Of a stretch of 64,000 nt of DNA, positions 21,779 to 63,413 are shown in pieces. Position 1 is the stretch's first letter, and each line of letters starts with the position of its first letter. Both the position numbers and the translations under genes were made by a program. The notes beneath the pieces are model-generated. The model ran no database searches. It was not told the DNA's origin and worked only from the letters and a program-made list of their open reading frames with translations. The stretch is from Sinohyriopsis cumingii (lineage: Eukaryota > Mollusca > Bivalvia > Unionida > Unionidae), in contig CM068828.1 of assembly GCA_028554795.2 (NCBI GenBank), positions 14,746,814-14,810,813 on the forward strand, given 5' to 3'.

Positions 21779-21794
21779 ATGATTGGAAGTAAGG

Positions 21795-23365: not shown

Positions 23366-24857
23366 TACAATAAAAAATGGTTTTTAAATGTTAAGTCCAC
23401 ATACATGTGTTGAATTAGTTTTACTGGAGCAGACGTACAATAATGGGAACAACAACTACGTCCTTGAACGTTTGCCAGCTTAAAGCAATCTTTCGTTATC
23501 AGGTTACGTAGAACTACCTATGGTATTTAAATCTAGTTCACTGTGTGCTCGTCGTTTGATTAGTGGCACGTGTCAACTCTGTAAGAGGACGTTTGTCGCA
23601 GGGTGGTGGAGGTGGTTAATGTTCTAGAACTTGCTCGTTCATATGACATTTTTCCGATTTTATTATATATTTGTAGTTACTGTTTCACGGTTTCATTTGA
23701 CATTAAGCAGACATTTCATCACTGAATGCAGACACGGATCTGCGAGTAACAGCACCCATCACCTTGCCGGCGCGCACCGTCTCTATACTCTCACAACCTG
23801 GCACGTAAAACAATTGAACTTCGGCGTGAATATATGCATTCAGGCGTAGCAAACAAACTCATTTGGCTACTGAGTATTAACTCTCCTATCAATCCACGGC
23901 TATATACAGCGTGCCAAGCCAGTGGTTCCATTGGTCATATTATTAGTGTGACACATAAGAAACTCAGCTGTACCAGCGGAAAACCAGTTAGATCCGGACC
24001 ACTGAAAGAGCGACAGACAGCTAACGATAACGGAAATGAAGGGAATGAATCGACTTGACGTCAGAAATAAATTGAAGATTTTATCCAACTCCTCTATATG
24101 TTGGGAAGTTTAGAAAGTATGAACATTGGTGAATCCCCAGATGCGTCGCCATAAGCTCCATTTTCTGTAACTTCCATACATAATGCAATATAAATGCCAC
24201 GGTTTAAAGGAAAATGTTGACGAAATAAATCTTCTGCTTCACAATCGCGAACATTGTTAGGAAAATGATAGAGGTCATCTAAAATATTTCATGACCTGCC
24301 ACTGCGTTTCAGGACATACTGGTACGGCTGTTGTCTGTGAATTTATGGTCATACATATTAGGATTCCTTAAAACCAAATTAATCTCCTTACTGCATTGCA
24401 AGCTAAAGATGTTCGTTTGTCCATACACAAAATTCTTTAACTTTGCTACATATATCTTCTTACAATCAGTCCAATCAACTACCTGATTTCGACCATCTCA
24501 TTGAACAGTTCCTTGTGTCTTGTATTCTACTTTGCGAGTTTAAAGGCAGGAAAGATATCAATGAGAGATGGAAGAAATAGAAGACTTTGTTTCAAACCAC
24601 AATCTTTCAAAGAGAAGTCATATACCTGCAACTGCCACTTTGTCCCACTTGTCCTTAGATTTTTTAATGTGTGATCCATCTCTTTTACATGCCTTATGTT
24701 GCGATGTTGGTGACGAATTATACGCTTGTGACAACGGTATGCTTAAGATGTAGTGCTCAGAAGTAATACCCCCAAGACTCAAGAGTTAGAAAGAGATACA
24801 AGTTGAACAAGGCCGATAGGGAAACGTTCCATTCCCAGTTCGAATCACATTGAATGG
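22000..24857. other. Intergenic with tandem repeats, no gene recognised
   Basis: Includes three diverged copies of a unit of about 56 bp (22915-23042, TTGTGGTWTGYTGCCG), five 21-bp units (23112-23226, CACCATTACCGCCATCAA) and an AAT/ATT tract with inverted symmetry (23280-23370). Short frames have no recognisable domain. Confidence 0.6.
23112..23226. repeat. 21-bp tandem repeat, about 5 copies
   Basis: Units of the type CATCACCATTACCGCCATCAA with few substitutions. Confidence 0.9.
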
Positions 24858-25103
24858 AGGGGCCCCGAGTGGCCGAGTGGTCTAAAGCGCTCTCTGTTAC
24901 GGATCACTGCCATGTCACCTCTGTCTGCGTGGGTTCGAGTCTCGGATTCAGCCAATGTGGGTCTGTGAGAAAGCATGCCAGTAGCTTATCGTGGGTCGGT
25001 GGTTCTTTCTGGGGTTTTCCCGGGTTCTTCCTCCACCATTAATACTGGCCGCCATGAATAGCCTATCGTGTGCTGAAAACTGGCGTTAAACCCTACAACA
25101 ACA
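24858..25103 (+). mobile_element. SINE family A, full length
   Basis: Complete head (GGGGCCCCGAGTGGCCGAGTGG), B box, body and GTTAAACCCTACAACAACA tail, highly similar to the 21.5-kb copy. A target duplication is not clear. Confidence 0.93.
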
Positions 25104-25662
25104 GCATATTCAATAGTTGATCTTTCCAGAACACGTGTATCGTATAAACGTATTTACAAATATGATCTAGGGTGTTACTGAAGATATAATACCAAACAAT
25201 AAGGTGATTCCTAAACATGTCAACAAAATATGGCTTACTGAAAATTTCAAAGACACCAACCTGAGACTGGATAAGGACCCTAAAAATGTCAACAACCAAG
25301 AATCTTAATAAATAACGTATATACCGTGCAAAAGTTCTTCGTATTGTTACAGAGAGTAAGAGGAAAATATGACAGTGTAATTAAGAAGTAATACTATTAA
25401 GCATCCAGTCGAATTACAAGAATAGTCATTGATTAAATAGACGACCTGACCCAGTACTCTTCTATCTTCTATCACTTATATTTATGAAATGATTCTTTAT
25501 GTAATGACCAAAACATGAATACAATATAATGAACCCTTTAAGCATTATGGAAAGCTAATACTTATTATGGAAATGCTATGGCAAAGTGAGGGATAGTGTT
25601 TTTGTAAAGAGTAATGTCATATTCTTAAAGCGTAAATATTAAGTAGTATATAAATGAGTATT

Positions 25663-38425: not shown

Positions 38426-38437
38426 ATCACCATGGTG

Positions 38438-38676
38438 GGGCCCCGAGTGGTCTAAAGCGCTCACCGTTCCGGATCACTGCCATCTCACCTCTGTCTGCGT
38501 GGGTTCGAGTCCAATGCTCGGCTTGCGTGGGTACGTGGGAAAGCCTGCCAGTAGCTTTTCGTGGGTCGGTGGTTCTTTCCTGGGTTTTCCAGGGTTCTTC
38601 CTCCACCAGTTATACTGGCCGCCATGTATAGCCTATCTTGTGCTGAAAAATGGCGTTAAACCCTAAAACAACAACA
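38438..38676 (+). mobile_element. SINE family A
   Basis: Head slightly deleted in the A-box region (GGGCCCCGAGTGGTCTAAAGC), with B box, body and a CCCTAAAACAACAACA tail. It is flanked by a perfect 12-bp target duplication ATCACCATGGTG (38426-38437 and 38677-38688). Confidence 0.95.
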
Positions 38677-38818
38677 ATCACCATGGTGACAGAATCGTAC
38701 CTTGTCTATTCATAATTGTGTAAATTCTATATTTTGATACCTTAGGTAACAGATGCAACATTGTTCATATTTGTTTACATTCTATGCATTAATCATCCAT
38801 GGTGTTAGATCTAATTAT

Positions 38819-38824: not shown

Positions 38825-39063
38825 AGCAGCAGAGGGGGCGAATCGGACATTTTGTCCAATCGTTATTTGGCTTAATTATTACTTTCTGCACTCAACGATC
38901 CTGTGTCGTCAGCGCCTGGTAAAAAAAAAACGACGACGTCGTTGGGGGATCGTCGCGTCGTCATTTGGTTTAATTAACACCTTCTGCGCGTTGATCCCCA
39001 GCGTCGTCAGCGTCCGGTAAGCACATCGACGACCGCGTCGATGTCATCGTCCCCTCTGCTGCT
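38825..39063 (+). repeat. Left TIR of Polinton P2 (239 bp)
   Basis: Begins AGCAGCAGAGGGGGCGAA and ends CCCCTCTGCTGCT, so the TIR is itself bounded by a 13-bp inverted repeat. It contains two 58-bp direct repeats (38865-38922 and 38963-39020), each ATTTGGYTTAATTA to GTCGTCAGCGYCYGGTAA. Its reverse complement is at 52979-53219. The 5'-AG terminus is typical for Polintons. Confidence 0.95.
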
Positions 39064-39095: not shown

Positions 39096-39770
39096 CTAAC
39101 CGAATATTTGGTCAAGTCCGATACGATATCGTGTCCGAGGATCATGTAAATTTATCGTTACGAATCCATGTGGGGTCGACTGAGCATGACTAAAAAAGTT
39201 TCGAAAAACATTAAAGTCCATGTCACCGCCGCACCATGTCTGCCAAATATTTCGTAGCGTGTGTGTATCAACGCCGTTGAACACAGCAAGAATATTACAG
39301 TTGTCTCTAATTACTTTTGGAATCTGAGTGTATCGTTGAGTGACATATATCACGTCAGTGTTTTTATGCCTGCCTCTGGAAAATATCCTAGCTGGGTTTT
39401 TTTGATTGTCTAACATAACATCATCGTACACGACTAGATTGTTAACGTCGCCATCAATATCATCAATACCCGGTGCATCATTGATATCTGTAATAAACTC
39501 GATGACATTTTTTTTAGCGATCGCTGATGCATTCTCGTTGAAATCTTTCAACACCTCGTAGCATCGTTGATCATCTACGCTAGGAGCAACCAAATACAAC
39601 TTATCCCACTTCATCCATCTCATTATTAAATTGAGTAACAATTGCGTCTTGCCGGATCCAGATGGTCCGATGATAATCATCCGGATCGAGTTTGGTAACG
39701 CTGCAACATGCTTAACTGGTTCTCTTGTTTTAGTCGCCGAAAAATCAATTATATTCATATTTCTATACAT
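39096..39770 (-). CDS. FtsK/HerA (A32-like) genome-packaging ATPase, 224 aa
   Basis: ATPase that pumps the genome into the capsid in Polintons, adintoviruses and other double-jelly-roll viruses. Walker A GPSGSGKT is at residues 35-42 and Walker B LVVYDD at 112-117; a VTQRYTQIPK segment with a sensor-type Gln follows. The length is normal for this small family. It starts 5 bp from the divergent zinc-ribbon gene, so the two probably share a bidirectional promoter. It is the first gene inside the left TIR. A decayed homologue is in P1 at 32200-32935, in the same divergent arrangement. Confidence 0.95.
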   Translation of the reverse strand: MYRNMNIIDFSATKTREPVKHVAALPNSIRMIIIGPSGSGKTQLLLNLIMRWMKWDKLYLVAPSVDDQRCYEVLKDFNENASAIAKKNVIEFITDINDAPGIDDIDGDVNNLVVYDDVMLDNQKNPARIFSRGRHKNTDVIYVTQRYTQIPKVIRDNCNILAVFNGVDTHTLRNIWQTWCGGDMDFNVFRNFFSHAQSTPHGFVTINLHDPRTRYRIGLDQIFG

Positions 39771-39775
39771 AAATT

Positions 39776-40054
39776 ATGGATCTATATTGTGTGAAGTGTA
39801 GAGTGCGTACTGGCACAAATGATATGACAACCGTTACAACAAGAAATAACAGATCGGCGCTTACTGGCAAGTGTGTACAATGCGGTACAAAGAAATTTAG
39901 ATTTATTTCTATTAAACCCGGGGATGTTTTAAAAAAAAGCGAGGAGGTGACATCGCAGCCAAGTTATCAAAACTCCCCGGAACCCCGTGGGCAAAGTATC
40001 CAGGAGAAAAGCACCTCCCAGGATATAGCTACTGTGGCCCCGGAACACGATTAG
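39776..40054 (+). CDS. Zinc-ribbon protein (0-frame product of a candidate frameshift gene), 92 aa
   Basis: Two Cys pairs (C5/C8 and C34/C37) form a zinc ribbon. The first 45 residues are conserved in the P1 copy, and the rest is polar and ends in TVAPEHD. At codons 52-53 the zero frame reads through T-TTA-AAA (39928-39934), a canonical slippery heptamer. A -1 shift there leads into the phospholipase A2 domain, which otherwise has no start codon. The 92-residue protein may therefore be the unshifted product, with a longer shifted product as a virion or early protein. Comparable Polintons were not available to me for comparison. The ribbon alone suggests nucleic-acid or protein binding; its role is unknown. 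Confidence 0.85.
   Translation: MDLYCVKCRVRTGTNDMTTVTTRNNRSALTGKCVQCGTKKFRFISIKPGDVLKKSEEVTSQPSYQNSPEPRGQSIQEKSTSQDIATVAPEHD
39928..39934 (+). promoter_or_regulatory. Candidate -1 programmed ribosomal frameshift site TTTAAAA
   Basis: The heptamer fits X XXY YYZ in the zero frame of the zinc-ribbon gene (codon boundaries at 39926, 39929 and 39932). It is followed by AAAAGCGAGGAGG and a GC-rich stretch 40-60 bp downstream. I cannot fold the RNA here. The -1 frame is open from the upstream TAA at about 39913 to 40299. Confidence 0.65.
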
Positions 40055-40299
40055 ATATCAGACTCGATGATCAAAATCAGCCCAAACCCGGTGAGTATCC
40101 AATAAACGCTATCGATAAGGCGTGTCATGCTCATGATGTTGCTTACAAAAGTAGCGATCTGCAACAGCGTCATATCGCGGACGTAAAATTAATTCACGCG
40201 TTAAATGCTATTCCTGATAAATCCGTCAAAGAAAAATTGGCTTCATGGTTGGTAAAATCGGCTATGAAAGGTAAATTAATGATGGGTGCTGGTAATTAA
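39934..40299 (+). CDS. Parvovirus-type phospholipase A2 domain (-1 frame)
   Basis: The frame contains the PLA2 Ca-binding loop YCGPGT preceded by LPGYS, then the catalytic HD pair in ACHAHDVAY, the arrangement found in parvovirus VP1 unique regions, where PLA2 lets virions leave endosomes. The helix after it is followed by a basic tail ending MMGAGN. The frame has no ATG upstream of the catalytic residues (the first is at 40264), so translation must come from the zinc-ribbon gene by frameshift, or by splicing. It stops 7 bp before the integrase ATG. Alternative: an artefactual indel in the A8 run, which would fuse the genes directly. No PLA2 remains in P1. Confidence 0.85.
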   Translation, partial: KKRGGDIAAKLSKLPGTPWAKYPGEKHLPGYSYCGPGTRLDIRLDDQNQPKPGEYPINAIDKACHAHDVAYKSSDLQQRHIADVKLIHALNAIPDKSVKEKLASWLVKSAMKGKLMMGAGN

Positions 40300-40306
40300 T
40301 AACAAC

Positions 40307-41251
40307 ATGGAATCCATCTATTATTCTCCGAGAGGATACTGGAAGGGGAAGGCCGCAATTAGTAAGCTTGCAAGCGCTGCAAAGGTAACAAAGGCCACTG
40401 CGGCTAATTGGTTATCCAAACAGGCTATATGGCAAATCTATCTACCACCGCCTAAACAAATCAACTTCTCGCGCTTTGATGTCAGCGTACCTAATGAAGT
40501 TCATCAGGCTGATATATTATTTCTGCCGCATGACAACGGTTACAAATACGCGCTAACCGTAGTTGATGTTGCGAGTCGATACAAACAAGCGGAGCCGTTA
40601 AAAACAAAGTCGGCAACTGAAGTAGCCGCTGCGTTTGAAAGAATTTATCGAAGAGGCCCTCTGCGCTGGCCAAATCTATTACAAGTTGATCCCGGTAGTG
40701 AATTTCGCGGCGCTGTTTTATCAACGCTGAAACATCATAGCGTCGCGATACGACGAGGTCATACTGCGCTACATCGTGATCAGGCAATTGTTGAACGATT
40801 CAATCGGACTCTCGCTGAACGGTTATTTGGATATCAATACGCGAAGGAATTCATCCAAGAAAAACGATCTCGTGAATGGGTTAAAAGGTTGCCAGGTGTA
40901 ATTGCAGCGTTAAATAACGAGATTACCCGAGCAATCAACGTGAAGCCCAGCGACGCGATTAAATACGAGTATATACCCGGAAAATCAAAAATAAATAGCG
41001 TTTCCAAGCCGATTCTAGGCAATGTCACCGTGAGATATCTATATGAACCAGGAGAGCTTGAAGGCGGTAAAAAAAGAGCTACTGATCCTATTTGGAGTGT
41101 TACCACACATAATATATCAACGATAACACGATCAACTGGTAGACCACCGATCTACAGACTGGATTCAACTGCTCCTCAGCGCGGATTTACACGCGAGCAA
41201 CTACAAGTGATACCTGACGATACTCAATTACCCCCGCGTGGTCTTAACTAG
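40307..41251 (+). CDS. Polinton DDE integrase, 314 aa
   Basis: Retroviral-type integrase that inserts the linear element DNA into the host chromosome. An N-terminal helix-turn-helix-like segment (AAISKLASAAKVTKATAANWL, residues 16-36) precedes the rve core, with D69 (HQADILF), D128 (QVDPGSEFRG) and E163 (AIVERFNRTL). The D-35-E spacing is exactly that of retroviral and Polinton integrases. The C-terminal part is basic and ends after a GFTREQLQVIP motif. I chose the ATG at 40307; a GTG seven codons upstream is also in frame. It overlaps the polymerase end by 8 bp (convergent). Confidence 0.95.
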   Translation: MESIYYSPRGYWKGKAAISKLASAAKVTKATAANWLSKQAIWQIYLPPPKQINFSRFDVSVPNEVHQADILFLPHDNGYKYALTVVDVASRYKQAEPLKTKSATEVAAAFERIYRRGPLRWPNLLQVDPGSEFRGAVLSTLKHHSVAIRRGHTALHRDQAIVERFNRTLAERLFGYQYAKEFIQEKRSREWVKRLPGVIAALNNEITRAINVKPSDAIKYEYIPGKSKINSVSKPILGNVTVRYLYEPGELEGGKKRATDPIWSVTTHNISTITRSTGRPPIYRLDSTAPQRGFTREQLQVIPDDTQLPPRGLN

Positions 41252-44200
41252 CGCCGTTGCGTCTATTACACTCAAGACAGGTCAACCTCACATTGTTTTT
41301 GACATGACCGAGACTGTTATCGATCCTGTCCACGGTAAATTGGCGAGCGTCTTTATCCGAATAGCGCCAACTCATTATACAATTACAACTCGCGCAGTGA
41401 TTATTCTGTTGTTGTCGTAACGCAATTATTAATTCGGCATCAATATCAAAACGCCGCTGTTTTTTTTTATCCTGTTGGCGGTAACCCGAGAGTTTTCTAT
41501 CAATGACGCTTGCATCGATGGTGACTTTGTCGCCGGCTTCGTCAGTGACTCCGTCACTGGCTTCGTCAATAACAATTCTTCGAAGCTGATTTATTCTCCG
41601 TACTCGGGACACTGCAAGATAGACTAGATTCGACCATTCGATGCGATTATCAACTATCCAAACAACTGTGTCCGTGATGGTTAGTCCCTGCGAGGAATGT
41701 ATTGTCGTTGCGTATCCTAGCGTCCACGGGGATTTATCAGCACGTAGCGCGTCTTCGACGACGCTGATATCAACGAGCACAATATCATTCAGCACAAGAA
41801 TTTGTTTTTCTGTCCGGCCCGGGATTTCAACTTCAATGTTCTGCCGCCGTGTGTCCGCGGGTCTATAACACAACGGCACTGGACGCGTTGGAAACTTTTC
41901 CTTATGCAACGCAAACAATTTCCGCTGAAGTGTGTCTCTGACTATCTTTCTACTCGCTACAATCAAATCGTTTGGTCTCCATGTTTCCCAGAATTCATTT
42001 AACGGCGTTTCCGGAATCACCTCGCGGATTATTTCACATTGAACTCTATCCGGCTGTAATCTGATTAATTTTTTAACCTCGCGCAGTTGTTCATCAAGTG
42101 CTCGGTAATCAGTATCGGTTTCTTCATAATAGTCCACGAACCCGCTCAACCAATCATGTGGACCCTCGCCGACAAATGGTGGTGGTTGGCCATGGTCGCC
42201 ACACATGATTACCGCTGTATTCGCGCGCAGCAACCACTCAAGAAACATTTGTAAAGTATCTAACGAAACAGTACATATCTCATCCCAGATGATAATGTCG
42301 GGAATAAATTTTTCACCCATTCGATCAGGAGTCCACTCACCACCGCTGTATCGAAAAAAGCTGTGATAAGTAACGGCGTCAACATTTCGTTGTTTTATCT
42401 CTCGCGCTAGTCTATGGGTTGGTGTAAGCACGATCATACTTGTCCGCGTTCGAAATAATTCAATTGCCCGAGTCGTCTTTCCTGACCCGCCACAGCCGCT
42501 TAAATAAACTGTTTTATGTCTACAAATTGGATCAGAACACGGTGGTGCATTAGACCATTCCGATAGATTATCACCGCGTAGGTAATTGTTTTCAACGGTG
42601 ACATCTGCTGACGGGGAATAATCGCGTCGTATTTCATTTTTAATTCTCCATGTACCCCAACTCTCGTCCGGACTAGTAAACTCGGCTACGTTTTTCTTAT
42701 ACTTCGCGTCTATATAAAATGAATCAACGGCTACTCTAACCGCGGTATCGGGGAATCTATTTATCATCGAGAATAAATTGATAGCGGCATAACCCAGCAT
42801 AGACGCCCTCAAATGTGGATACGCCGGGCTGTCTCCATCGCTGTAGGTAACAACTGTACCCAACCTCGTTCCATTGGACAAAAAAGCTGTTTTGCAGTTC
42901 ACGTATCTATTTTTTGCCACTGCGTCCTTGATTACAAAATCATATTCTGCGTCATCTATAATCAGCCGTGAGCAATATCGTTTGTAATCGCAGTTTTTTC
43001 CACCTTGTGTAAACTTACCAATTATTCTTCTACCGAGATCTTTTGCCTCGTGGTTTCGTTGGTTGAATATCCTCCTGGACCATTCGATGATATATTCCTC
43101 GTCGGCATCAATGTGTTTTCTGGATTCATCAATTATGCTATCTAGACGCTCTGGTTCTGGTAACCAGACTTCAGTCTGCGCCCGGTATGATATAATCGCG
43201 TCGCTGACAATCAACGAAACTAGCATGCTACAATCAATCATATACCGTAGCAGCGCTATTGGCAACCACTTCTTTTCAGCTATGTGTCTACCGATCCAAA
43301 TATAGCAACAGCGATGAAGTCCTGCCGCGAACTCAAATGATACTATGCGAGCGAATCCGGTTAAATCAAAATCAGGCAGTGGTCCATTAATAGCAACACG
43401 AGTCATTTCATGTCTGGGGTGTCCAAATCGTTTGAAATACTCAGCGGCGGATCCATACCCGAGAAAACTCGCTGGATAACAGGCAACCATATCAACGGAA
43501 ATCATAGCGTCGCGGTTGTATTCAGTGTTCCATAGTCCACCGTGATAGTATTCCAAACAACTGGATTGTACATCTGGTAAAAATTCCTTGCGCGTTGGTC
43601 TCCACGCATTTTTCCTTGCTGCAACATGAGCTACAACCGATGGAATCGTAAAACAATTTGTTAGCAGTTGTTCATCATGCTCTTCAAATTCCATGGCGGT
43701 TTTTTTCATCCTGTTGTGAAATGCTTCAGTGCGATATAATTCACCGTTTGGCCTTACAAACTGATCAAAGGTATCCGCATCGTTTTCAGCGCTGCGAAGT
43801 AACCACACTGATACAGGGTCGTTTTTACACAAGTAGGCAATAGCATCAAATAGTTTCCTCTCCGCGAGAAAACCATCCCTGGAGAATTGTTCTCCTAAAA
43901 ATTCTTCGGGTATATACTTTACTGTTCTATCCCGTGGAAATATTGTGATCGCGGGCGTCCATGCGTGTTCGTTATGATCAATAATTTTGATTGGGGCTCC
44001 CTTTGATTTGTACTTTGATTCGTGTAATACTTCACCGGTTATCGTTGTAACGGTTATTGGAAATCTCAGCGATGTTTCTAATCTCGCTATGTCGCTGATG
44101 GTCGCTCCACGCTCTTTTACGGTTAGTTCCCACTGGTTGATTTTGCTACGTCGTAAATCAGTCAATTTGTTTCCTCGACACGCATTTGTAAAATGCTCTA

Positions 44201-44735
44201 TTATTCGTTCTGCTACACAATTTATCCCCGTTGACTGTTTCATCGGTTTCAGTTTTCCGATATCAGGTTTCTTATTTAACGGGTATATTCCATAAACAAC
44301 TGCTGTTTCAGGATACGCTCGTTCATAGTATGGTCTGTCAATTCCGGTTAACAACCCCGGCTTGGAGTCGCGGCTGACAATGACTGTTTTCTTGTCGCTG
44401 AGAACCGGTTCAAATTTATCACGTATGATCCAATCGCCTGATTTCACCCGGACAATGAATTTTACTCTGAAGAAATATCTTTTACCGTCAAGTTGTGATA
44501 TTATCGTTGCTGCGCGGTTGTCGTTCATGGTAGCATCAACAATGCCATCAATTCGAAATGTTGACCAACTGTGAGATGCGCCATCACGCTTGAATTCATT
44601 GATACAATCGCGTATTTTATTCAACAGGGTTTTATCGTTTATTAACGCTTTTGGTGTGTCCTTGAGGACTCTATCGAGATTGAACTTAATATTTTTCCGG
44701 GGCTTAATTGCTGCCAATCTCTCAAACTCATCCAT
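41244..44735 (-). CDS. DNA polymerase B - SF1 helicase - HNH nuclease fusion, 1163 aa
   Basis: A single open frame with three modules. (1) Residues about 385-680 are a family-B polymerase: YHGGLWN, then motif A SVDMVACYPAS (D415), motif B KDLGRRIIGKFTQ and a motif C variant VAVDSFYID (D671). (2) Residues about 740-1060 are an SF1-type helicase: Walker A GCGGSGKTT (747-755), Walker B IIIWDE (818-819 DE), motif III GDHGQ (846-850), TIHSSQG and LVYLAVSRVRR near the end. (3) Residues about 1114-1160 are an HNH nuclease: CxxC at 1114/1117, VDRIDN, KNNVRL and CLECN. No exonuclease motifs were identified in the N-terminal 380 residues. Start at MDEFERL (44735); an ATG 16 codons upstream is in frame but would overlap the neighbour. 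Polintons normally carry a polymerase without helicase. It presumably replicates the linear genome. Confidence 0.92.
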   Translation of the reverse strand: MDEFERLAAIKPRKNIKFNLDRVLKDTPKALINDKTLLNKIRDCINEFKRDGASHSWSTFRIDGIVDATMNDNRAATIISQLDGKRYFFRVKFIVRVKSGDWIIRDKFEPVLSDKKTVIVSRDSKPGLLTGIDRPYYERAYPETAVVYGIYPLNKKPDIGKLKPMKQSTGINCVAERIIEHFTNACRGNKLTDLRRSKINQWELTVKERGATISDIARLETSLRFPITVTTITGEVLHESKYKSKGAPIKIIDHNEHAWTPAITIFPRDRTVKYIPEEFLGEQFSRDGFLAERKLFDAIAYLCKNDPVSVWLLRSAENDADTFDQFVRPNGELYRTEAFHNRMKKTAMEFEEHDEQLLTNCFTIPSVVAHVAARKNAWRPTRKEFLPDVQSSCLEYYHGGLWNTEYNRDAMISVDMVACYPASFLGYGSAAEYFKRFGHPRHEMTRVAINGPLPDFDLTGFARIVSFEFAAGLHRCCYIWIGRHIAEKKWLPIALLRYMIDCSMLVSLIVSDAIISYRAQTEVWLPEPERLDSIIDESRKHIDADEEYIIEWSRRIFNQRNHEAKDLGRRIIGKFTQGGKNCDYKRYCSRLIIDDAEYDFVIKDAVAKNRYVNCKTAFLSNGTRLGTVVTYSDGDSPAYPHLRASMLGYAAINLFSMINRFPDTAVRVAVDSFYIDAKYKKNVAEFTSPDESWGTWRIKNEIRRDYSPSADVTVENNYLRGDNLSEWSNAPPCSDPICRHKTVYLSGCGGSGKTTRAIELFRTRTSMIVLTPTHRLAREIKQRNVDAVTYHSFFRYSGGEWTPDRMGEKFIPDIIIWDEICTVSLDTLQMFLEWLLRANTAVIMCGDHGQPPPFVGEGPHDWLSGFVDYYEETDTDYRALDEQLREVKKLIRLQPDRVQCEIIREVIPETPLNEFWETWRPNDLIVASRKIVRDTLQRKLFALHKEKFPTRPVPLCYRPADTRRQNIEVEIPGRTEKQILVLNDIVLVDISVVEDALRADKSPWTLGYATTIHSSQGLTITDTVVWIVDNRIEWSNLVYLAVSRVRRINQLRRIVIDEASDGVTDEAGDKVTIDASVIDRKLSGYRQQDKKKQRRFDIDAELIIALRQQQNNHCASCNCIMSWRYSDKDARQFTVDRIDNSLGHVKNNVRLTCLECNRRNGAS

Positions 44736-44774
44736 ATAATTAAAACAAGTATTTAAATGAAAGAATATAGTATA

Positions 44775-45098
44775 ATGAATCACTGCAAATGGTTGATGAT
44801 TGGGTCGACAACCCCGTGCAATAAATCATGTAGAGGTGAATTCTGCGGATACCATTTACAAAGCGTTCGTAATGGTTCTCTTGGCCCTCTCCCGTGCTTG
44901 GTTTGCCACGTCGGTGTAAGAGGAAAATCACAGTTATGTATTAATTGTGGCGGAAAGCGATACAGGGAACTAAAACGCTATTATGACAAGCGAATTAAAA
45001 ACGCCGTCATTGACCCTACCGCAGACTTCGTCATTAAAACCCCCCAAGACTACGTTGAAAGATTCATAATTAAACCAAATAATAAATTAGACAAGTAG
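44775..45098 (+). CDS. Cys-rich zinc-finger protein, 107 aa
   Basis: Contains CNKSCRGEFCGYH and CLVCHVG followed by CINCGGKRYRELKRYY, i.e. four or more Cys pairs arranged as zinc fingers. A basic helix and an acidic/polar tail follow. It is divergent from the polymerase, 39 bp away. A start at 44757 (six codons longer) is equally possible. Similar small CRGxFCGxH proteins occur in large DNA viruses; the role is not known to me. Confidence 0.8.
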   Translation: MNHCKWLMIGSTTPCNKSCRGEFCGYHLQSVRNGSLGPLPCLVCHVGVRGKSQLCINCGGKRYRELKRYYDKRIKNAVIDPTADFVIKTPQDYVERFIIKPNNKLDK

Positions 45099-45111: not shown

Positions 45112-45624
45112 ATGGACCAAGAATTTCAGCCGCATCCCCTGGTCGTCAATTACGAGGCGTCTCGCGACGGCATTGTTAGAAATCGTAGACTGAAGAAACC
45201 AGTTGGCACCGTAAATAATCACGGGTATTTGATGTTTACTGCTGGAGGGAAAAAATATCTCTGTCACAGAATCATCTATGAATGTTTCCACGGATTAATC
45301 GAGAATGGACTTGTGATTGATCATATTAATAGTAATAAGACTGATAATTCTCTTACAAACCTGCAAACTGTCTCTCAGAGTGAAAATAGTAAAAAAGGCC
45401 AAACCGGTAAATACCCAAAGAAAGCAAAACCCGTAAGGTCATTTGATACAACAACTCACGAGGAAAAAATATTTCAGTCGATGAATGAAGCAGGAAAATA
45501 TTTTGACATTTGTATCACCTCAATACGATTTGTTGCAGAACGAGTATATCAAACAGCAATCTCAAAAAAGACCGGGTATAGAATTCGATTTTCATATGTA
45601 GATACGAAGTCACCAGCGCCATAG
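45112..45624 (+). CDS. HNH homing-type endonuclease, 170 aa
   Basis: Looks like a phage- or giant-virus-type HNH homing endonuclease. The N-terminal strand module (YEASRDGIVRN) is followed by the HNH core CHRIIYECFHG...VIDHINSNKTDNSLTNLQ (residues about 63-98), and a C-terminal NUMOD1-like DNA-binding segment (FQSMNEAGKYFDICITSIRFV). Family knowledge: such genes are selfish and cut alleles lacking them. It sits 13 bp after the Cys-rich gene. No counterpart was recognised in P1, and P3 is not covered here. Confidence 0.9.
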   Translation: MDQEFQPHPLVVNYEASRDGIVRNRRLKKPVGTVNNHGYLMFTAGGKKYLCHRIIYECFHGLIENGLVIDHINSNKTDNSLTNLQTVSQSENSKKGQTGKYPKKAKPVRSFDTTTHEEKIFQSMNEAGKYFDICITSIRFVAERVYQTAISKKTGYRIRFSYVDTKSPAP

Positions 45625-47618: not shown

Positions 47619-49061
47619 ATGATAAATAATAGAATGTTTGCGCGAACCGCTGATCCCGCGTTTGATATGGACGCCCCAGTGCGCAGGGATGATTCTGTCC
47701 GTGATTATCAATATTATTCTTATTATGCAGCGCAACCCGACCTACGATCGCGAATTGAACTTCAAGTCCAAGATACCAGTAAATATTTTTTGCCGTGTGA
47801 AGCGTTTATCGAAATCGAGGGAGAACTCGTGACAAATGCCGCCGATAATGCACCATACGCAGATGACCATCGTGTTCGAGTTGGCTTCGTCAACAACGGT
47901 ATCATGGCGTTATTTGAGAGCGCCAGATATCTTATTGACGGGCGAGAAATTGAATCAATAGAACGCGAGGTTGATGTTGCAACAACGATAATTGGGTTGG
48001 CGAGATACTCGGATGATTATACAAGATCGGCGGGCCCATCTATGATGTTTTCGAAGGACACCACCAATAACGCTGACCATCTTCAGTACGTTAACGTGCT
48101 GGCGGAAAGAGATACCGCAGTTGACCCACAGGCTGAAGCAGCCAATCCAGACCGCAGAGCAAGACCAGGCGCTAATTTCAATATTATAAAAAGCACAAAC
48201 AATGATTACAATCTAGGATTCGCAGCACGAGTAGGAATGTTGCAAGGACCACGCCGACAGTTTTCATGCGCGATTCCACTCCATCACATATTTGGATTCT
48301 GCAGAAATGTCAGAAAAGTTGTCTATGGGGCTAAGCATACAATCGCGCTGACGCGAAGGGGCGATGATAACAATGCAATATGGCGTGCTGCTGGCGTCGC
48401 TGCCGGTAAAGTCGTTTTAACTAAAATGGCATTGTGGATGCCGGTGCTGACTCCATCAGTTACCACGGAAGCACGATTGTTAGCATTTATGGAACAGGGA
48501 GGGAAATCGTTGTTGAGTTGGCTAGCGGTAACAACTGATGCTAAAGAGGATAACGTCGCCGATACGTTTACATGGCACCTGGCGTCAAAACAGGGTGTTT
48601 CAGCCCCGCGTCATATATTCATAGCGCTGCAGAATAGGGAACGATTGGGTAGTCAAGAACGCAGCCATATGATATTTGATCAATTAGGAGTCAGGGATGT
48701 TTCGCTGAGAATAAACGGACAACAGGAACCATCCGAGGATATACAGCTTAATTACGGCGACAACCATATCGCACGTGTGTATCATCGATTGCTGTCGTAT
48801 ATGGGTCGTGATCAAAACGTCGACACTGGTTTGCAAATATCACAACTTGATTTTAAAAACCTGTATCCGATTTATTATTTTTCGCTGGAACATCTTGATT
48901 TAACGAGACAATCCGTCGTTGATATACACTTCCGAGCTCGTATAGCCCCGGGTGGTGTTAATTATAGAGCGGTTGCTGTCATTCTCAGCGATAAATCAAT
49001 GCTGCTAGAAGGCGTTGGTGGACGAATGAGAATCGTTGATGCGCCAGTGGAAAACATGTAA
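47619..49061 (+). CDS. Major capsid protein (double jelly-roll), 480 aa
   Basis: Hexon-like shell protein. Features are an N-terminal arm, FIEIEGEL, a NNGIMALFESARYLIDGREIES strand/loop typical of double-jelly-roll capsids, a middle IPLHHIFGFCRNVRKVVYGAKHTIAL segment at the domain boundary, and the C-terminal strand cluster RINGQQEPSEDIQLNY to VILSDKSMLLEG. The length is in the range of adintovirus/Polinton capsid proteins. The C-terminal half is nearly identical to P3 and recognisable in P1. It is preceded by AATTGAAAAC. Confidence 0.92.
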   Translation: MINNRMFARTADPAFDMDAPVRRDDSVRDYQYYSYYAAQPDLRSRIELQVQDTSKYFLPCEAFIEIEGELVTNAADNAPYADDHRVRVGFVNNGIMALFESARYLIDGREIESIEREVDVATTIIGLARYSDDYTRSAGPSMMFSKDTTNNADHLQYVNVLAERDTAVDPQAEAANPDRRARPGANFNIIKSTNNDYNLGFAARVGMLQGPRRQFSCAIPLHHIFGFCRNVRKVVYGAKHTIALTRRGDDNNAIWRAAGVAAGKVVLTKMALWMPVLTPSVTTEARLLAFMEQGGKSLLSWLAVTTDAKEDNVADTFTWHLASKQGVSAPRHIFIALQNRERLGSQERSHMIFDQLGVRDVSLRINGQQEPSEDIQLNYGDNHIARVYHRLLSYMGRDQNVDTGLQISQLDFKNLYPIYYFSLEHLDLTRQSVVDIHFRARIAPGGVNYRAVAVILSDKSMLLEGVGGRMRIVDAPVENM

Positions 49062-49089: not shown

Positions 49090-49566
49090 ATGTCGTATAG
49101 TGTCGTCAGTGTAGAGTTGACTGATGGTCAAGTCAAGAAATTACGATCAAAGTCGGCTAAACAATGCGGAACCACAATAACGCTGAAGCCGTCACAGATG
49201 GCAGGTGGTAATCATAAGATATCGTTGACGGCGCGTCAAATAAAACATTTCAATGATGCGATGAAGAATAAAAAGGGTGTTCAAATAGATTTTTCAGCCG
49301 CAGCAATTAAAAACATGGAAAGGACCGGTGGGATATTTCCACTGTTAGCTGCGATTCCAGCGTTGATTGCCGCGGCCGCACCAGCAGTGGCTAAGGCGGC
49401 GGCGTTGGGGGCCGTTGGTACTGCGGCGGGGATGGCATTGAAGAAGGCAACCGGGAAAGGCTACAAAAAAAAACGACCCGTGGCCGGAAAGGGTCTAAGA
49501 CTACCGGGGACCCCGTATTCATGGTATTCGGGAAAGGGTCTAAGACTACCAGGAACCGTTTATTGA
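49090..49566 (+). CDS. pX-like hydrophobic virion protein, 158 aa
   Basis: N-terminal MSYSVVSVELTDGQVKKL, then a possible adenain cleavage site MAGG-N (residues about 52-56), then a hydrophobic Ala-rich helix (GGIFPLLAAIPALIAAAAP) and a Gly/Lys-rich basic tail with a duplicated GKGLRLPGT motif. Proteins of this type are common next to the protease in Polintons and adintoviruses, and are thought to be membrane-active or DNA-binding like adenovirus pX. The leader AATTGAAAGC...TTTACAATAAATG is shared with the P3 homologue. Confidence 0.88.
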   Translation: MSYSVVSVELTDGQVKKLRSKSAKQCGTTITLKPSQMAGGNHKISLTARQIKHFNDAMKNKKGVQIDFSAAAIKNMERTGGIFPLLAAIPALIAAAAPAVAKAAALGAVGTAAGMALKKATGKGYKKKRPVAGKGLRLPGTPYSWYSGKGLRLPGTVY

Positions 49567-49586
49567 CTCGGGAGTCAATGACTCCC

Positions 49587-50045
49587 ATGTCTAATTTTGA
49601 TTTAATAGGCGCCGCAAACGCGCTAGCGATAAAAAACTTCAGAGGTGTTTTTATGAGGGATCAATTACCGGCGGCCCCAAGGAATACTGAAACAGGCATA
49701 ATTAACCTCGATGGGTCCTCCGGAGCGGGAACTCATTGGGTTGCGTACGCGATTGATCCGCGTGCAATCGTCTATTTTGATTCATACGGGTTAGCCCCGC
49801 CGAAAGAGTTCATGCGGTATATCCGGGCGTGTTCAGCCCGGGCGTGTTCAGCCCGGGTTTTTTATTCCACGCTGCCAACACAGCGATTAAGCGACCCACC
49901 GATATGTGGCCGTGAGGTATTGAACGTACTCGCGGCGATTTCATCATCGCGGAAACCACCTCATGTGGTTGTAAACGAATACACTAGTGGGGTTGTAGAA
50001 GCTCAACGGATTTTAGAGAATAACATTTACAATAATAATGATTGA
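49587..50045 (+). CDS. Adenain-like maturation cysteine protease, 152 aa
   Basis: Catalytic His50 (GTHWVAY), Asp65 (YFDSYG), oxyanion Gln99 (LPTQ) and Cys107 (PPICGRE) are in the adenovirus protease order. It processes virion precursors. Upstream ATGs at 49521 and 49578 are in frame, but conservation with P3 begins at MSNFDL. It carries a 15-bp tandem duplication (49824-49853, ACSAR twice) absent from P3. Its stop overlaps the next gene's start by 8 bp. Confidence 0.92.
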   Translation: MSNFDLIGAANALAIKNFRGVFMRDQLPAAPRNTETGIINLDGSSGAGTHWVAYAIDPRAIVYFDSYGLAPPKEFMRYIRACSARACSARVFYSTLPTQRLSDPPICGREVLNVLAAISSSRKPPHVVVNEYTSGVVEAQRILENNIYNNND

Positions 50046-51561
50046 TATCTGGGGGCGACCGGTTTCGGCGCTGAAACAATCCGCGGAAACGACCGCCGCC
50101 GACATAAAAAAACTAATTGAGGATGAAATCGCTGATGTGTTGAACTTAACCAGTGTTGACCCAGATGAAATAGTTGTATTTCAAGACCGCCAGGGTAAAT
50201 TGAAATCCAGTAATGTGTCGCTGGATGACGTTTTAATACGACAGCGTGATACCGCCGAGGACACTATCGCGCTGTATACCAGCGACGGACGACTCAAACC
50301 GGGTGAATCCATCTTGACGATAAATGGAAAAATAGGTACACTTGGCGACAATTATATAACCATGTCAAATTCGTTAAAGGGTTTACGTAGTGAAATTAAA
50401 TTATATGAAGAACGGATCGTGTTGACGCTAACGCATTTCGACAATGTGTCGCACATCGTCGATAGTTTTTTTCGGGGACCCCCGACGGCAGACGAACCAA
50501 ATCTTGTAATAATAAAAAATGCTATTTCGGAACTTACGGCGATGTCGGCCAATTTACCCCCGTTGCGAAAAAATGTTAACAGGATCGATGACAACTTTGA
50601 TAAATTCTTTGGTAAAAAAAATACCAAGCCGGATGAGATTACAATAACTATAAATGATATCACTGCGTATGGACAGGAAATAAAAACAATCAAAACTGAT
50701 GTTGCAACAAACAAAAGGAGTGTAGACGCGCATGAACGGGAAATAGAAATAATCGGCGCTAATGTTGCAACGATCATAAATAATGTAGACTCGCATGGAC
50801 GGGAAATAGAAATAATCAAAACTGATGTTACGACGATCATAAATAATATGGACGCGCATACACAGGAAATAGGAATAATCAAAACTGATATTGAAGCGAA
50901 CAAAAAGAGTGCGGACGCGCATACACAGGAAATAGGAACAATCAAAACTGATATTGAAGCGAACAAAAAAAATGTAGACGCGTATTGGCGGGGAATAGGA
51001 TTAATTAAAACTGATGTTGCAGCGAACAAAAAAGGCATAGACGTGCATACATATGAAATAGAAACAATCAAACTTGATGTTGCAGCGAACAAAAAAAGTA
51101 TAACCGAGAATACACGGGAAATAGAAACAATCAAAACTAATGTTGCAGCGAACAAAAAAGATGTGGACACGCATATACAGGAAATAGGAACGATTAAAAC
51201 TGATGTTGAAGCGATTAAAGACGGACTACCGAGAGTAGCAGAGCAATTCGAAAAAATAAAAATCCCTCATGAGAACATCATCAACACAGTATACACAATT
51301 CGGCATGGATCATTCGATTGGACTCCTACACAGAATACAGTAAATATCACCGCAACTGTTAAGGGTATTTATCGACTGACACTGGTTTCAATGATGCAGT
51401 TTAATATATTATCGTCGAGTTCATCCGGGTTTAACAATACAATATCAACAATTATAGACAAGAACGCAACTGAAAAGTTTACAATTTATGCCGCTGATAG
51501 AAATCTAGCCGGGGCAAACATTACATGGTATGTGGAATTTGTAGCGAATCTAAGTAATTAA
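50038..51561 (+). CDS. Fibre-like attachment protein, 507 aa
   Basis: The N-terminus MIDIWGRPVSALKQ is followed by a globular region and a shaft of nine repeats of 21 residues (63 bp; pattern IKTDVxANKKxVDAHxxEI, 50680-51240), which predicts a coiled-coil trimer. The C-terminal head of about 100 residues (VYTIRHGSFDWTPTQ... to WYVEFVANLSN) is beta-rich, resembling TNF/C1q-like or fibre knobs. By position (after the protease) and layout it is likely the vertex fibre that contacts the host cell. P3 has the same head but only four shaft repeats. Confidence 0.82.
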   Translation: MIDIWGRPVSALKQSAETTAADIKKLIEDEIADVLNLTSVDPDEIVVFQDRQGKLKSSNVSLDDVLIRQRDTAEDTIALYTSDGRLKPGESILTINGKIGTLGDNYITMSNSLKGLRSEIKLYEERIVLTLTHFDNVSHIVDSFFRGPPTADEPNLVIIKNAISELTAMSANLPPLRKNVNRIDDNFDKFFGKKNTKPDEITITINDITAYGQEIKTIKTDVATNKRSVDAHEREIEIIGANVATIINNVDSHGREIEIIKTDVTTIINNMDAHTQEIGIIKTDIEANKKSADAHTQEIGTIKTDIEANKKNVDAYWRGIGLIKTDVAANKKGIDVHTYEIETIKLDVAANKKSITENTREIETIKTNVAANKKDVDTHIQEIGTIKTDVEAIKDGLPRVAEQFEKIKIPHENIINTVYTIRHGSFDWTPTQNTVNITATVKGIYRLTLVSMMQFNILSSSSSGFNNTISTIIDKNATEKFTIYAADRNLAGANITWYVEFVANLSN

Positions 51562-52980: not shown

Positions 52981-53219
52981 CAGCAGGGGGGGGGGCGATG
53001 ACATCGACGCGGTCGTCGATGTGCTTACCGGACGCTGACGACGCTGGGGATCGGCGCGCAGAAGGTGTTAATTAAACCAAATGACGACGCGACGATCCCC
53101 CAACGACGTCGTCGTTTTTTTTTTACCAGGCGCTGACGACACTAGATCGTTGAGTTGCAGAAAGTAATAATTAAGCAAAATAACGATTGGACAAAATGTC
53201 CGATTCGCCCCCTCTGCTG
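52979..53219 (-). repeat. Right TIR of Polinton P2
   Basis: Reverse complement of 38825-39063, with small differences such as a longer G run at 52986-52995. It ends CCCCCTCTGCTG before the candidate duplication CTATTA. Confidence 0.95.
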
Positions 53220-53225
53220 CTATTA
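53220..53225. repeat. Candidate 6-bp target-site duplication of P2 (right), CTATTA
   Basis: Matches 38819-38824. Its first two bases could instead be the last two of the TIR. Confidence 0.65.
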
Positions 53226-59028: not shown

Positions 59029-59266
59029 AGCAGCAGGGGGGGGGCGAATCCGACATTTTGTCCAATCGTCATTTTGCTTAATTATTACTTCTGCACTCAG
59101 CGGATCCGGTGTAGTCAGCGCTGGTAAAAAAAAAAAACGACGTCGGTCCATCCTACACGACGGTGACGTCATTTGGTTCTGCGAGCCGATCCCAGCGTCG
59201 TCAGCGTCCGGTAAACACAGCGACGACCGCGTCGATGTCATTTCCCCCCCCCCCCCCCCCGCTGCT
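59029..59266 (+). repeat. Left TIR of Polinton P3
   Basis: Starts AGCAGCAGGGGGG and ends with a long C run and GCTGCT. It is closely similar to the P2 TIR, including two degenerate copies of the 58-bp internal repeat (TCAGCGCTGGTAAA and GTCAGCGTCCGGTAAA). Some indels are present. Confidence 0.93.
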
Positions 59267-59276
59267 AAGAAGTTAT

Positions 59277-60599
59277 TTACAATGATCTCACAAATAGAGT
59301 AACCACTAACTCCTCCTCTTGTAGATCAATTAGGTTATTTGACTGATCGGTAAGTCTAAAATTAATTCTCGTTAAAAACCGATTATGGCATCGCATATAG
59401 ACCGGATTAATCGGGCTCTCAACGATTAAGAATCCGGGAGGGGCTGTTGGCGAAAATGAATAAAGGATATACCCCTGTTGAGCTTGATTTGATTGCTTGG
59501 TATCTACCTGGTAACTCCCTTCGATAACATCACACACTAGATTGATTGCTATCACCGATGCGATATTTACGTTGTATGGAGCAATATGCCTACCACCATC
59601 TCCGTTATCGTGTCTGAGGATAATTGATGGACCGAGAAAATCATTAAGAGACTTTTTTAGTTCTGGCGCGTTGTATCCTGGAAACTTGAAATCGGGTAAA
59701 TCGGCTTCTGTGATATTATACTCGGTTAGGAATTTTTGTTTATTATCATCGTTGTTAGCAGATGTTGTCTTAACGATTCGTTCATTGATATATTCCATGT
59801 CTGATATAAGTTGATTTAACACCTCAACGTGTTTTCGTGCTTTTGTTTTCCGTAGCTGTTCTAGTTGTAATTGGTAATTACGATTAATCTCGGCAAACGC
59901 ACCAGTGATATCATTTAAACCAACTGTGACCGTGGCGGACGATTCAGGAGTTTGCTTATACGGAAAATACCATTGCATGGTATTCCTGTCTTGAAATATA
60001 AACCCGCTGGGTAATAGCGTGTTTCTTATAATAGACAATTCATCTTGATAACTGGGATTAATCTCATGATACGATTGCACATTTGTGTGCAAATACGCGG
60101 GGATTTCATTAGGTGGATTCTCGGGCCAACCTAGTATGGTTCTTATTGAACTGTTATAAATATCAACCATATACCCCGGTGTGCTTATTTCAATCGTCGA
60201 CGATAACGTCGGTTCATGAACCGTAATAGCGATTTTTGATTCTTTTCCTGTGATTGATTTTATCCTGCGTTGAAATTCTTTATTGATTTGTTCTACTTGG
60301 TATGACCCAGTTGGTATTGTAACCTCATTCCAGTCTGGGGTTCCATCGGGTTTATTTGTCCATGCAAAAACCAGCGAGTTATTAGGTTGTTGTCCGTTAA
60401 ATGCTTCCGCTCGGATATTAGGCCAACTGTGATATATTCGCAATTTTGTCAGCGCTATTTCATTCACTGGAATCGGAGAGGGGAAGTTTACACTAAATTC
60501 TGGCTTCGTTGATGTTATCGATATCATATTTGTTTGTACCGGAGTGGTGTTCTCCGCGATCCGTTGAAGTAATTGCAACCCTTCGGGGTTCAGCGACAT
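59277..60599 (-). CDS. Penton-like capsid protein with inserted domain (P3), 440 aa
   Basis: Identical in layout to the 283-residue P2 protein, but the segment between GWPENPP and ILRHDNGDGG carries about 157 extra residues (roughly positions 174-332). The insert has an aromatic-rich start (QWYFPYKQTPESSATV), a helical middle (RNYQLQLEQLRKTKAR) and a polar end. P1 and P2 lack it. If the protein is a penton, this is a surface-exposed loop insertion; its function is unknown. Confidence 0.85.
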   Translation of the reverse strand: MSLNPEGLQLLQRIAENTTPVQTNMISITSTKPEFSVNFPSPIPVNEIALTKLRIYHSWPNIRAEAFNGQQPNNSLVFAWTNKPDGTPDWNEVTIPTGSYQVEQINKEFQRRIKSITGKESKIAITVHEPTLSSTIEISTPGYMVDIYNSSIRTILGWPENPPNEIPAYLHTNVQSYHEINPSYQDELSIIRNTLLPSGFIFQDRNTMQWYFPYKQTPESSATVTVGLNDITGAFAEINRNYQLQLEQLRKTKARKHVEVLNQLISDMEYINERIVKTTSANNDDNKQKFLTEYNITEADLPDFKFPGYNAPELKKSLNDFLGPSIILRHDNGDGGRHIAPYNVNIASVIAINLVCDVIEGSYQVDTKQSNQAQQGYILYSFSPTAPPGFLIVESPINPVYMRCHNRFLTRINFRLTDQSNNLIDLQEEELVVTLFVRSL

Positions 60600-60630
60600 T
60601 ATTATTATTCGCAGTTTCTAGTGTTTAATT

Positions 60631-61203
60631 TCAACACCGAATATTAACAACCTGCTTGTTTTCAGGAGAATGTTTTAAGCCCATTGAAGTGGTTTCAGCC
60701 ACGTGGTTTCCAGCTTCCAGTTGAAAATCCTCGATTTTTGACATCGCGGAGTCATACAACTGGACCATCGTGGAGAATTCAACATCGGATATAAACGAAT
60801 TATCTATCGCCAACGAGATAAACCCGGATAATTTCGAGTACGCGTCGGATACTATTTGATGTTTTACTGTATACTCGTTGAGTTTTTTCTGAGAACACGA
60901 TGATATCTTTCTAGTGATTGCGTTGGCGACTCCAGCAATTGTTGTCGCCGCGGAGATAGCGATTGGAACAGCGATCGGGGCCATCATGGTCACCGTGGAT
61001 AAAATAACACCGGTACCGGCTACTATACCTGACACCGAGTACACGACCGCGTCGATGGTGGTTATTTTTCGGCGGTATTTTTTTATTTTTATACGGCATT
61101 GTTCGGAAAGCGTTTTCAAATTCGCGTAGAATTCTTTTACGGTATTGAATCGATATTGATATGACGTCGGTGATACCTCTGATTCAATTACCTTGGTGGT
61201 CAT
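60631..61203 (-). CDS. Two-helix membrane protein (P3), 190 aa
   Basis: Homologue of P2 51587-52123 with the same two hydrophobic helices and tail. The C-terminus differs (ends NKQVVNIRC), and the reading is open throughout. It precedes the penton gene as in P2. Confidence 0.82.
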   Translation of the reverse strand: MTTKVIESEVSPTSYQYRFNTVKEFYANLKTLSEQCRIKIKKYRRKITTIDAVVYSVSGIVAGTGVILSTVTMMAPIAVPIAISAATTIAGVANAITRKISSCSQKKLNEYTVKHQIVSDAYSKLSGFISLAIDNSFISDVEFSTMVQLYDSAMSKIEDFQLEAGNHVAETTSMGLKHSPENKQVVNIRC

Positions 61204-61228
61204 TTTTATTTTAAAAGAGCTAGTATTT

Positions 61229-62422
61229 TTAATTACTTAGATCCGTTACAAATTCCACATACCATGTAATGTTTGCCCCGGTTAAATGTCTATCGACGGC
61301 ATAAATTGTAAACTGTTCAGTTTCGTCCTTGTCTATAATTGTTGATATTGTATTGTTAAACCCGGTTGAACTCGACGATAATATATTAAACTGCATCATT
61401 GAAACCAGTGTAAATCGATAAATACCCTTAACAGTTGCGGTGATATATATTATATTTTGTGTAGGAGTCCAAGTGAATGATCCATGATAAATCGTGTATA
61501 CTGTGTTGATGGTGTTTTCATGGGGGATTTTTATTTTTGTCACCTCCGGTAGTCTGTCTTTAATCGCTGTAACATCAGTTTTGATTGTTCCTATTTCCTG
61601 TATATGAACGTATAACCCCGCTTTGATCGTTTCAACATCAGTTTTGATTGTTCCTATTTCCTGTGTCGCGTCTACACCCCTTTTGTTCGCTTCAACATCA
61701 GTTTTGATTATTTCTATTTCCAGTTCATTCACGTATAAACCCGCTTTGATCGTTTTAACATCAATTTTGATTGTTTCTATTTCCTGTCCATACGCAGTGA
61801 TATCATTTATAGTTATTGTAATTTCATCCGGTCTGGTATTTTTTTTACCAAAGAATTTATCAATGGTGTTATCAGCCCTGTTAAAATTTTTTCGTAACGT
61901 GTAAAATTGGCCCGACAGCGTTGTAAACTCCGAAATAGTATTTTTTATCCCCACAAGATTCGGTTCGGTTACCGTCGGGGTTCCAAAAAAACTAGCAGTA
62001 GTGAGTTGTATATCGGTGACAGACTTTGTATCCCCTCGAACTGATTTGCTTGCGCGTCAAATTTATCATACAAATTTTTTAACCAATCCGACACGGATAT
62101 ATAATTGTTGCCAAGTGTACTTATTTTTCCATTTATCGTCAAGATGGATTCACCTGATTTAAGTCGTCCGTCGCTGGAATACAACGCTATGGCGTTTTCA
62201 GCGGCATCATTATTTCGTATTAAAACGTCATTCAGCGACACATTACTGGATTTCAGTTTACCCTGGCGGTCTTGAAATACAACTATTTCGCCCGGGTCAA
62301 CACTGGTTAAATTTAACGTATCAGCGATTTCATCCTCAATTAGTTTTTTTTATGTCATCGGTGGCGAGCGTTTCCGTGGGTTTTTTCAGCGCCGAAACCG
62401 GTCGTCCCCAGATATCAATCAT
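61229..62422 (-). pseudogene. Fibre-like protein, frameshifted (P3)
   Basis: The homologue of P2 50038-51561 begins at the ATG 62422-62420 (MIDIWGRP), but the frame is broken by an extra A in an A8 run near 62350 and again at a poly-T near 61975. The downstream frame 61229-61954 retains four 21-residue shaft repeats and the complete head. Homopolymer locations mean assembly error cannot be excluded. No restored reading is given. Confidence 0.85.
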
Positions 62423-62456
62423 TATTATTGTAAAAAAAACCAGTGTTTTTAATTAA
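62423..62456 (-). promoter_or_regulatory. Late-gene leader motif before the fibre gene (P3)
   Basis: On the minus strand AATTAAAAACACTGG then TTTTTTTTACAATAATA before the ATG at 62422. Confidence 0.5.
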
Positions 62457-62479
62457 CCCGCCGGGCCTCTACGACCCCA

Positions 62480-62902
62480 CTAGTGTATTCGTTTACAACC
62501 ACATGAGGTGGTTTCCCTAGTGTATTCGTTTACAACCACATGAGGTGGTTTCCGCGATGATGAAATCGCCGCGAGTACGTTCAATACCTCACGGCCGCAT
62601 ATCGGTGGGTCGCTTAATTGTTGTGTTGGCAGCGTGGAATAAAAAACCGGGGCTGAACACGCCCGGATATACCGCATGAACTCGTTTGGCGGGGCTAACC
62701 CGTATGAATCAAAATAGACGATCGCACGCGGATCAATTGCGTATGCAACCCAATGAGTTCCCGCTCCGGAGGATTTATCGAGGTTAATTATACCGGTTTC
62801 AATATTCCTTGGTTTTGTCGGTAATTGATCCCTCATAAAAACACCTCTGAAGTTTTTTATCGCTAACGCGTTTGCGGCATCTATTAAATCAAAATTAGAC
62901 AT
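62480..62902 (-). pseudogene. Adenain-like protease with altered C-terminus (P3)
   Basis: The start MSNFDL and the His, Asp and Cys catalytic segments are as in P2. A 37-bp tandem duplication (62480-62516 and 62517-62553) changes the frame after VVVNEYT, so the last residues differ. The catalytic core is intact, so it may still be partly functional. The overlap with the neighbouring fibre gene is lost. Confidence 0.85.
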
Positions 62903-62907
62903 AGGAG

Positions 62908-63384: not shown

Positions 63385-63413
63385 TTTTATTGTAAACGCG
63401 TTTATGTTTTCAA
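63385..63413 (-). promoter_or_regulatory. Late-gene leader motif before the pX-like gene (P3)
   Basis: On the minus strand AATTGAAAACATAAACGCG then TTTACAATAAAA before the ATG at 63384. Confidence 0.55.

Follow-up and report, generated by a model that had tools for sequence, protein, structure and literature searches.

Conventional Polinton/Maverick elements carry a double jelly-roll (DJR) capsid protein and are flanked by short target-site duplications (TSDs) of 5-6 bp. The Tlr1-like helicases are said to have been originally described by Krupovic et al. in 2016. As described in PMC11071308, these proteins, denoted pPolB-S1H, combine a terminal-protein (TP) domain, a vOTU domain, a polymerase palm and a superfamily 1 (SF1) helicase, with an HNH or GIY-YIG nuclease at the C-terminus, and the group has lost the first Asp of motif C. 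The same source discusses such fusions for polinton-like viruses (PLVs), the ciliate element Tlr1 of Tetrahymena, and giant-virus plasmids or transpovirons, states that polymerases lacking the same motif C Asp are active, and suggests intein invasion as the source of the C-terminal nuclease domains (PMC11071308). A protein of a PLV from Oxyrrhis marina that also joins an SF1 helicase and a protein-primed family B polymerase is inferred to be of independent origin from the Tlr-type fusions (PMC12721341), and adintoviruses are defined by an integrase with a C-terminal chromodomain (PMC11071296). In the available parts of the literature on polintons of molluscs, Elysia, bivalves, freshwater mussels and animal genomes (including PMC3671162, PMC4642659 and PMC10120064), no fusion of this type is found in animals.

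The window analysed here, 64,000 nucleotides of contig CM068828.1 from the bivalve Sinohyriopsis cumingii, contains a 14.4-kb element that is bounded by 240-bp terminal inverted repeats (TIRs) and encompasses the following features (profile matches are to Pfam).

38825..39063, no strand: left TIR, starting with AGCAGCAGAGGGGG (blastn, 230 of 240 positions identical to the right end)
39096..39770, minus strand: packaging ATPase, A32-like (Pox_A32, 5.1e-12)
39776..40054, plus strand: small protein with DUF5679, between the ATPase and the integrase (3e-12)
40286..41251, plus strand: RVE integrase (rve, 7e-09)
41244..44735, minus strand: predicted pPolB-S1H-HNH replication protein, 1163 aa (open reading frame, homologues, genome copies)
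44757..45098, plus strand: small Cys-rich protein, divergently oriented relative to the pPolB gene (open reading frame; weak matches only)
45112..45624, plus strand: free-standing HNH endonuclease near the fusion gene (HNH_3, 1.3e-14)
47619..49061, plus strand: major capsid protein, double jelly roll (DJR-like, 1.7e-17)
49521..50045, plus strand: putative capsid maturation protease, adenain-like (Peptidase_C5, E 0.012, below the Pfam cut-off)
52982..53221, no strand: right TIR (blastn against the left end)

The two named relatives of the capsid protein come from Sinanodonta woodiana and Potamilus streckersoni, which we take to be freshwater mussels, in line with a mollusc host. Wnt genes, regarded as animal-specific, give 40 matches from 43 candidates in the assembly and support an animal host; the mollusc haemocyanin family yields no match in the assembly and none in any control, so that this negative carries no information on the host. 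Among the element ORFs scanned, a set that leaves out antisense ORFs overlapping other genes, Pfam recognizes no second polymerase, and no clear TSD flanks the element in the window. The left TIR (38825-39063) holds an imperfect internal repeat of itself (50/65 identical), and a 507-aa fibre-like protein (50602-51294) displays 63-bp (21-aa) tandem repeats and weak coiled-coil-type Pfam matches. A second related element (59029-64000, minus strand) starts 5.8 kb past the first in inverse orientation, its longer aligned pieces being ~80-94% identical; its polymerase gene would fall outside the window. For the genes common to both elements, dN/dS is 0.05 (158-aa protein), 0.19 (capsid), 0.21 (283-aa protein), 0.34 (protease), 0.65 (178-aa protein) and 0.77 (fibre-like protein). 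Dispersed repeats at 21526-22009, 24856-25122 and 38426-38692, the last just outside the element, have a tRNA-derived, SINE-like look.

The open reading frame of the fusion gene (41244-44783, minus strand) comprises 1179 codons counted from a GTG, with no internal stops, and a start at the ATG at 44735 yields the 1163-aa product. Residue numbers below run from the GTG, so that the ATG is residue 17 and the protein corresponds to residues 17-1179. Five domains are predicted, all on the minus strand.

44304..44735 (residues 17-160): terminal-protein-like domain (weak match)
43884..44303 (residues 161-300): vOTU-type cysteine protease domain (Cys189, His270)
42549..43586 (residues 400-745): protein-primed family B palm (YHGG, motifs A-C, profile comparison)
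41568..42548 (residues 746-1072): SF1 (Pif1/Dda-like) helicase (Pfam, PHROG and PDB-chain profile matches)
41244..41477 (residues 1103-1179): C-terminal HNH (PHROG; Arg in place of the first His, two CxxC pairs)

The first-pass annotation of this DNA correctly listed the polymerase, helicase and HNH modules and overlooked the OTU-type protease and the terminal-protein-like domain upstream of it. The latter is suggested by a weak match, and the protease domain retains a conserved pair of putative catalytic residues, Cys189 and His270. No exonuclease domain is detected, as the first-pass annotation had also noted: only ~140 residues separate His270 from the YHGG motif, comparing the N-terminal profile with a phage PolB profile in which the exonuclease is present yields no match (E 0.28), and the known group has the same absence.

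Profile searches place the helicase region in SF1. Pfam matches are to AAA_19 (7.7e-12) and AAA_30 (5.7e-08), the PHROG match is to a Dda-like helicase (2.5e-17), and the family profile matches PDB chains named PIF1 helicase (2.3e-06); the helicase profile does not match the phage protein-primed PolB profile (E 0.17). Among the family members, the Walker A Lys is kept in 58 of 58 and the motif VI Arg in 49 of 49. In a tblastn search of phages, only the helicase part and a little of the preceding stretch are aligned among the matches listed (20 of 26).

The palm is missed by Pfam, with no PolB match in either the window protein or the 28 family members scanned, and an hhalign comparison of the whole-protein profile with nine phage protein-primed PolBs is not significant. 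A signal appears once hhalign is confined to the palm and more family sequences are included: the palm region alone, represented by 66 family sequences, matches the nine phage polymerases with a score of 38.6 (E 4e-4). In a column-shuffle control with the window protein as master, the real score is reached in 0 of 200 cases; with another family member (P0006) as master the score is 28.3, which is reached by 1 of 200 shuffles. In a global alignment of the palm with the phage PolBs, the YHGG motif, motif A (D431), the GKF of motif B (K581), motif C (A685-V-D687-S) and a following W line up. This comparison with phage protein-primed PolBs supports the proposed placement of the middle region in family B even though Pfam misses it. 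The earlier observation that motif C has a single Asp likewise holds, with the second Asp (D687) retained and the first lost across the family, like in the known group.

In total, 69 homologues (55 and 14 more) were collected, the named hosts being Elysia crispata (a sea slug), Desmophyllum pertusum (a coral) and Diversispora epigaea (a fungus). When viral contigs are scanned with the fusion protein, with two alignments, and with the ATPase and capsid proteins, no relative is identified, and a scan of genome contigs yields a single one, a 3.2-kb contig with short open frames from a Diapherotrites MAG (L010), which is probably a eukaryotic contamination of the bin.

Within the 2.90-Gb S. cumingii assembly, the gene is present in ~2,760 copies. 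Allowing up to 3 mismatches, there are 2762 sites for a 39-mer at the protease Cys and 2767 for a 26-mer in the HNH (none in the reversed controls), these being genome totals and not counts paired within single copies. For the TIR tip, 3088 sites are found with up to 1 mismatch, less than two for each gene copy, so that many ends must be more diverged or belong to another subfamily. All 39 scored gene copies, the best by protein score of 38048 first-look candidates, are full length and 97-100% identical, and 38 of these have no stop. A sample independent of the protein was taken as the first facing pairs of exact TIR tips on one contig, a choice that favours young copies. Exact 5-bp target duplications, differing between copies, flank 10 of 10 such TIR-paired copies (the window's element not among them); the gene is held end to end, including the HNH, in 10 of 10, and is open throughout in 9 of 10. 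The two samples of ten have nine elements in common, one that had already been picked by protein being replaced by the next pair. For the nine open copies together with the window (95.1-99.8% nucleotide identity; the copy with a broken frame, L075, excluded), dN/dS is 0.26 for the TP domain, 0.09 for vOTU, 0.27 for the linker, 0.17 for the palm, 0.14 for the helicase and 0.15 for the HNH, with 0.35 for the HNH plus the preceding linker and 0.19 for the whole gene. For 20 protein-picked copies, the values are 0.15 overall and 0.23 for the HNH plus linker.

The first-pass annotation further regarded the element as an otherwise ordinary Polinton, a view at odds with the conventional PolB Polintons of the same genome, which form a distant lineage. 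The protein-primed PolB profile PF03175 matches 150 times in 75 scored candidates, each gene being covered in two stretches (~8-216 and ~210-364, the latter sometimes extending to 426). Many of these conventional genes (75 scored places; L035-L040, L081-L083) lie in open frames of ~1359 codons. In three conventional elements, the integrase and the ATPase are 25-35% identical to those of the pPolB-S1H element. One side of 9.5-9.6 kb of each, which may or may not include the capsid gene, contains no match to the capsid protein of the pPolB-S1H element, and a 14-base piece of the TIR tip of the latter is absent from the same sides. The window integrase has no Chromo match in Pfam at E up to 1, whereas the same library detects a chromodomain in the one conventional integrase scanned. 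The low identity, the lack of a shared TIR piece and the chromodomain difference indicate that two distinct lineages exist side by side in this genome.

Taken together, these observations make it probable that this protein replicates a mobile, virus-like element of the Polinton type and that it belongs to the pPolB-S1H kind. The self-contained polymerase-helicase mode of replication suggested in the first-pass annotation is well supported as a reading. In the proposed cycle, the N-terminal domain would prime DNA synthesis at the element ends, after which the OTU-like protease, given its conserved active-site residues, might cut the adjacent priming domain off. The palm, which has the family B motifs and no proofreading domain, would copy the strand despite the missing Asp, while the Pif1/Dda-like helicase of the same chain, with its motifs in place, is predicted to open the duplex. 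The C-terminal HNH may cut branched or end intermediates that arise from copying, and the element would then re-integrate, presumably via the RVE integrase, making 5-bp target duplications of the kind found around other copies.

Three other explanations bear on this scheme. The first Asp of motif C is replaced in 64 of the 64 members with a residue at this position (A in 61, T, V and P once each), and the motif B Lys is not strictly kept (Arg in 55 of 67 members), a pattern that would also fit a catalytically dead palm; the protein would then be a helicase-nuclease, and DNA synthesis would fall to a host polymerase or to the conventional PolB encoded by the co-resident Polintons, the genes for which do occur in this genome. 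An inactive polymerase was an earlier suggestion of the authors of PMC11071308, as told there. Nevertheless, D431 is kept in 66 of 66 and D687 in 63 of 64 family members, the palm dN/dS is 0.17, and the active polymerases without the same Asp mentioned in the same source also speak against this possibility, which is thus unlikely. That separate genes were wrongly joined during assembly, or that the fusion is unique to the window copy, has a negligible probability and is ruled out by the co-linear full-length homologues from other sources, the full length of the 39 best-scoring copies, and the gene in 10 of 10 TIR-sampled copies; accordingly, the original claim of three modules in one uninterrupted 1163-residue frame stands.

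The remaining alternative concerns the HNH, which had been considered a possible captured homing nuclease, i.e., a self-spreading passenger without a part in replication. The domain matches PHROG endonuclease VII (9.1e-11) and HNH families inside residues 1089-1178, with R1153 and H1160 each kept in 48 of 48 family members. A phmmer pairing that is not significant (E about 1) aligns its VDR with a VDR in the restriction enzyme PacI, where the Arg is residue 93, which we take to belong to the PacI active site. A passenger origin would agree with the intein invasion suggested for such domains (PMC11071308), with the separate HNH_3 gene nearby (45112-45624), which itself is possibly a true homing nuclease, and with evolutionary distances: across 34 non-redundant members (35, one dropped as near-identical), those of the HNH correlate with the palm (r 0.82) and the helicase (r 0.80) less tightly than palm and helicase do with each other (r 0.90). 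However, none of 999 permutations reaches either HNH correlation, and the patchy presence expected of a homing insertion is not observed: the HNH stretch and the opposite end of the gene are equally frequent (2767 and 2762 as totals, not copy by copy), all 10 sampled copies contain the HNH, and it is present in 45 of the 49 family members whose sequence extends to motif VI (the exceptions are P0005, P0045, P0046, which ends within the HNH, and P0054). The HNH is also under purifying selection to the same degree as the helicase (0.15 and 0.14). It is therefore a fixed, selected part of the gene, and its frequency and constraint argue against a passing homing nuclease, which is improbable, and for a role in replication. 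The cutting of branched or terminal intermediates is preferred as its predicted activity because the domain is constrained like the helicase.

On a broader and more tentative reading, held with slightly less than even confidence, animals carry a recently active Tlr1-type polinton lineage apart from the Mavericks, with the ~2,760 copies found here, and all five domains of its replicase would be obligatory, the HNH acting as a replication nuclease (e.g., a resolvase of branches or ends whose active site has a PacI-like Arg) rather than as a homing passenger. Because an animal genome here holds thousands of copies, many of them very similar, the evolution of such an enzyme becomes measurable, including selection per domain and insertion ages. 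The copies also bear on the question of whether the C-terminal nuclease is carried along or does work in the protein, and their evidence runs counter to the intein-invasion suggestion of PMC11071308.

Compared with conventional Polintons/Mavericks, the element has the RVE integrase, the A32-type packaging ATPase, the DJR capsid protein and TIRs in common, as well as the short TSDs, which flank each of the 10 other TIR-paired copies read; unlike these elements, it encodes a fusion protein that is not a pPolB with an exonuclease domain. A canonical Polinton PolB is accordingly rejected, given the lack of a Pfam PolB match and of the exonuclease and the distance of the conventional lineage. The integrase has no C-terminal chromodomain, in contrast to the adintovirus definition. 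The Oxyrrhis marina PLV protein similarly unites an SF1 helicase and a protein-primed PolB in one chain, but there the helicase lies at the N-terminus and an exonuclease is retained (PMC12721341), so that this type is rejected for the mussel protein, in which the helicase is C-terminal to the palm and the exonuclease is absent. With the Tlr1-like helicases, as characterized in PMC11071308, the protein shares an N-terminal domain, vOTU with its Cys and His, an exonuclease-free palm that lacks the first motif C Asp, an SF1 helicase C-terminal to the palm, and a C-terminal nuclease of a homing type. The combination of the fusion gene with an RVE integrase is common to this element and Tlr1, whereas the C-terminal nuclease is HNH here and GIY-YIG in Tlr1 (PMC12721341). 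Thus, the fusion presented in the first-pass annotation as unusual for Polintons has an already published architecture (PMC11071308), with HNH among its known nucleases, and judging from its domain order the protein is a member of the known pPolB-S1H, or Tlr1-like helicase, kind. What appears to be new, within the parts of the literature searched, is an animal lineage of pPolB-S1H with thousands of copies.
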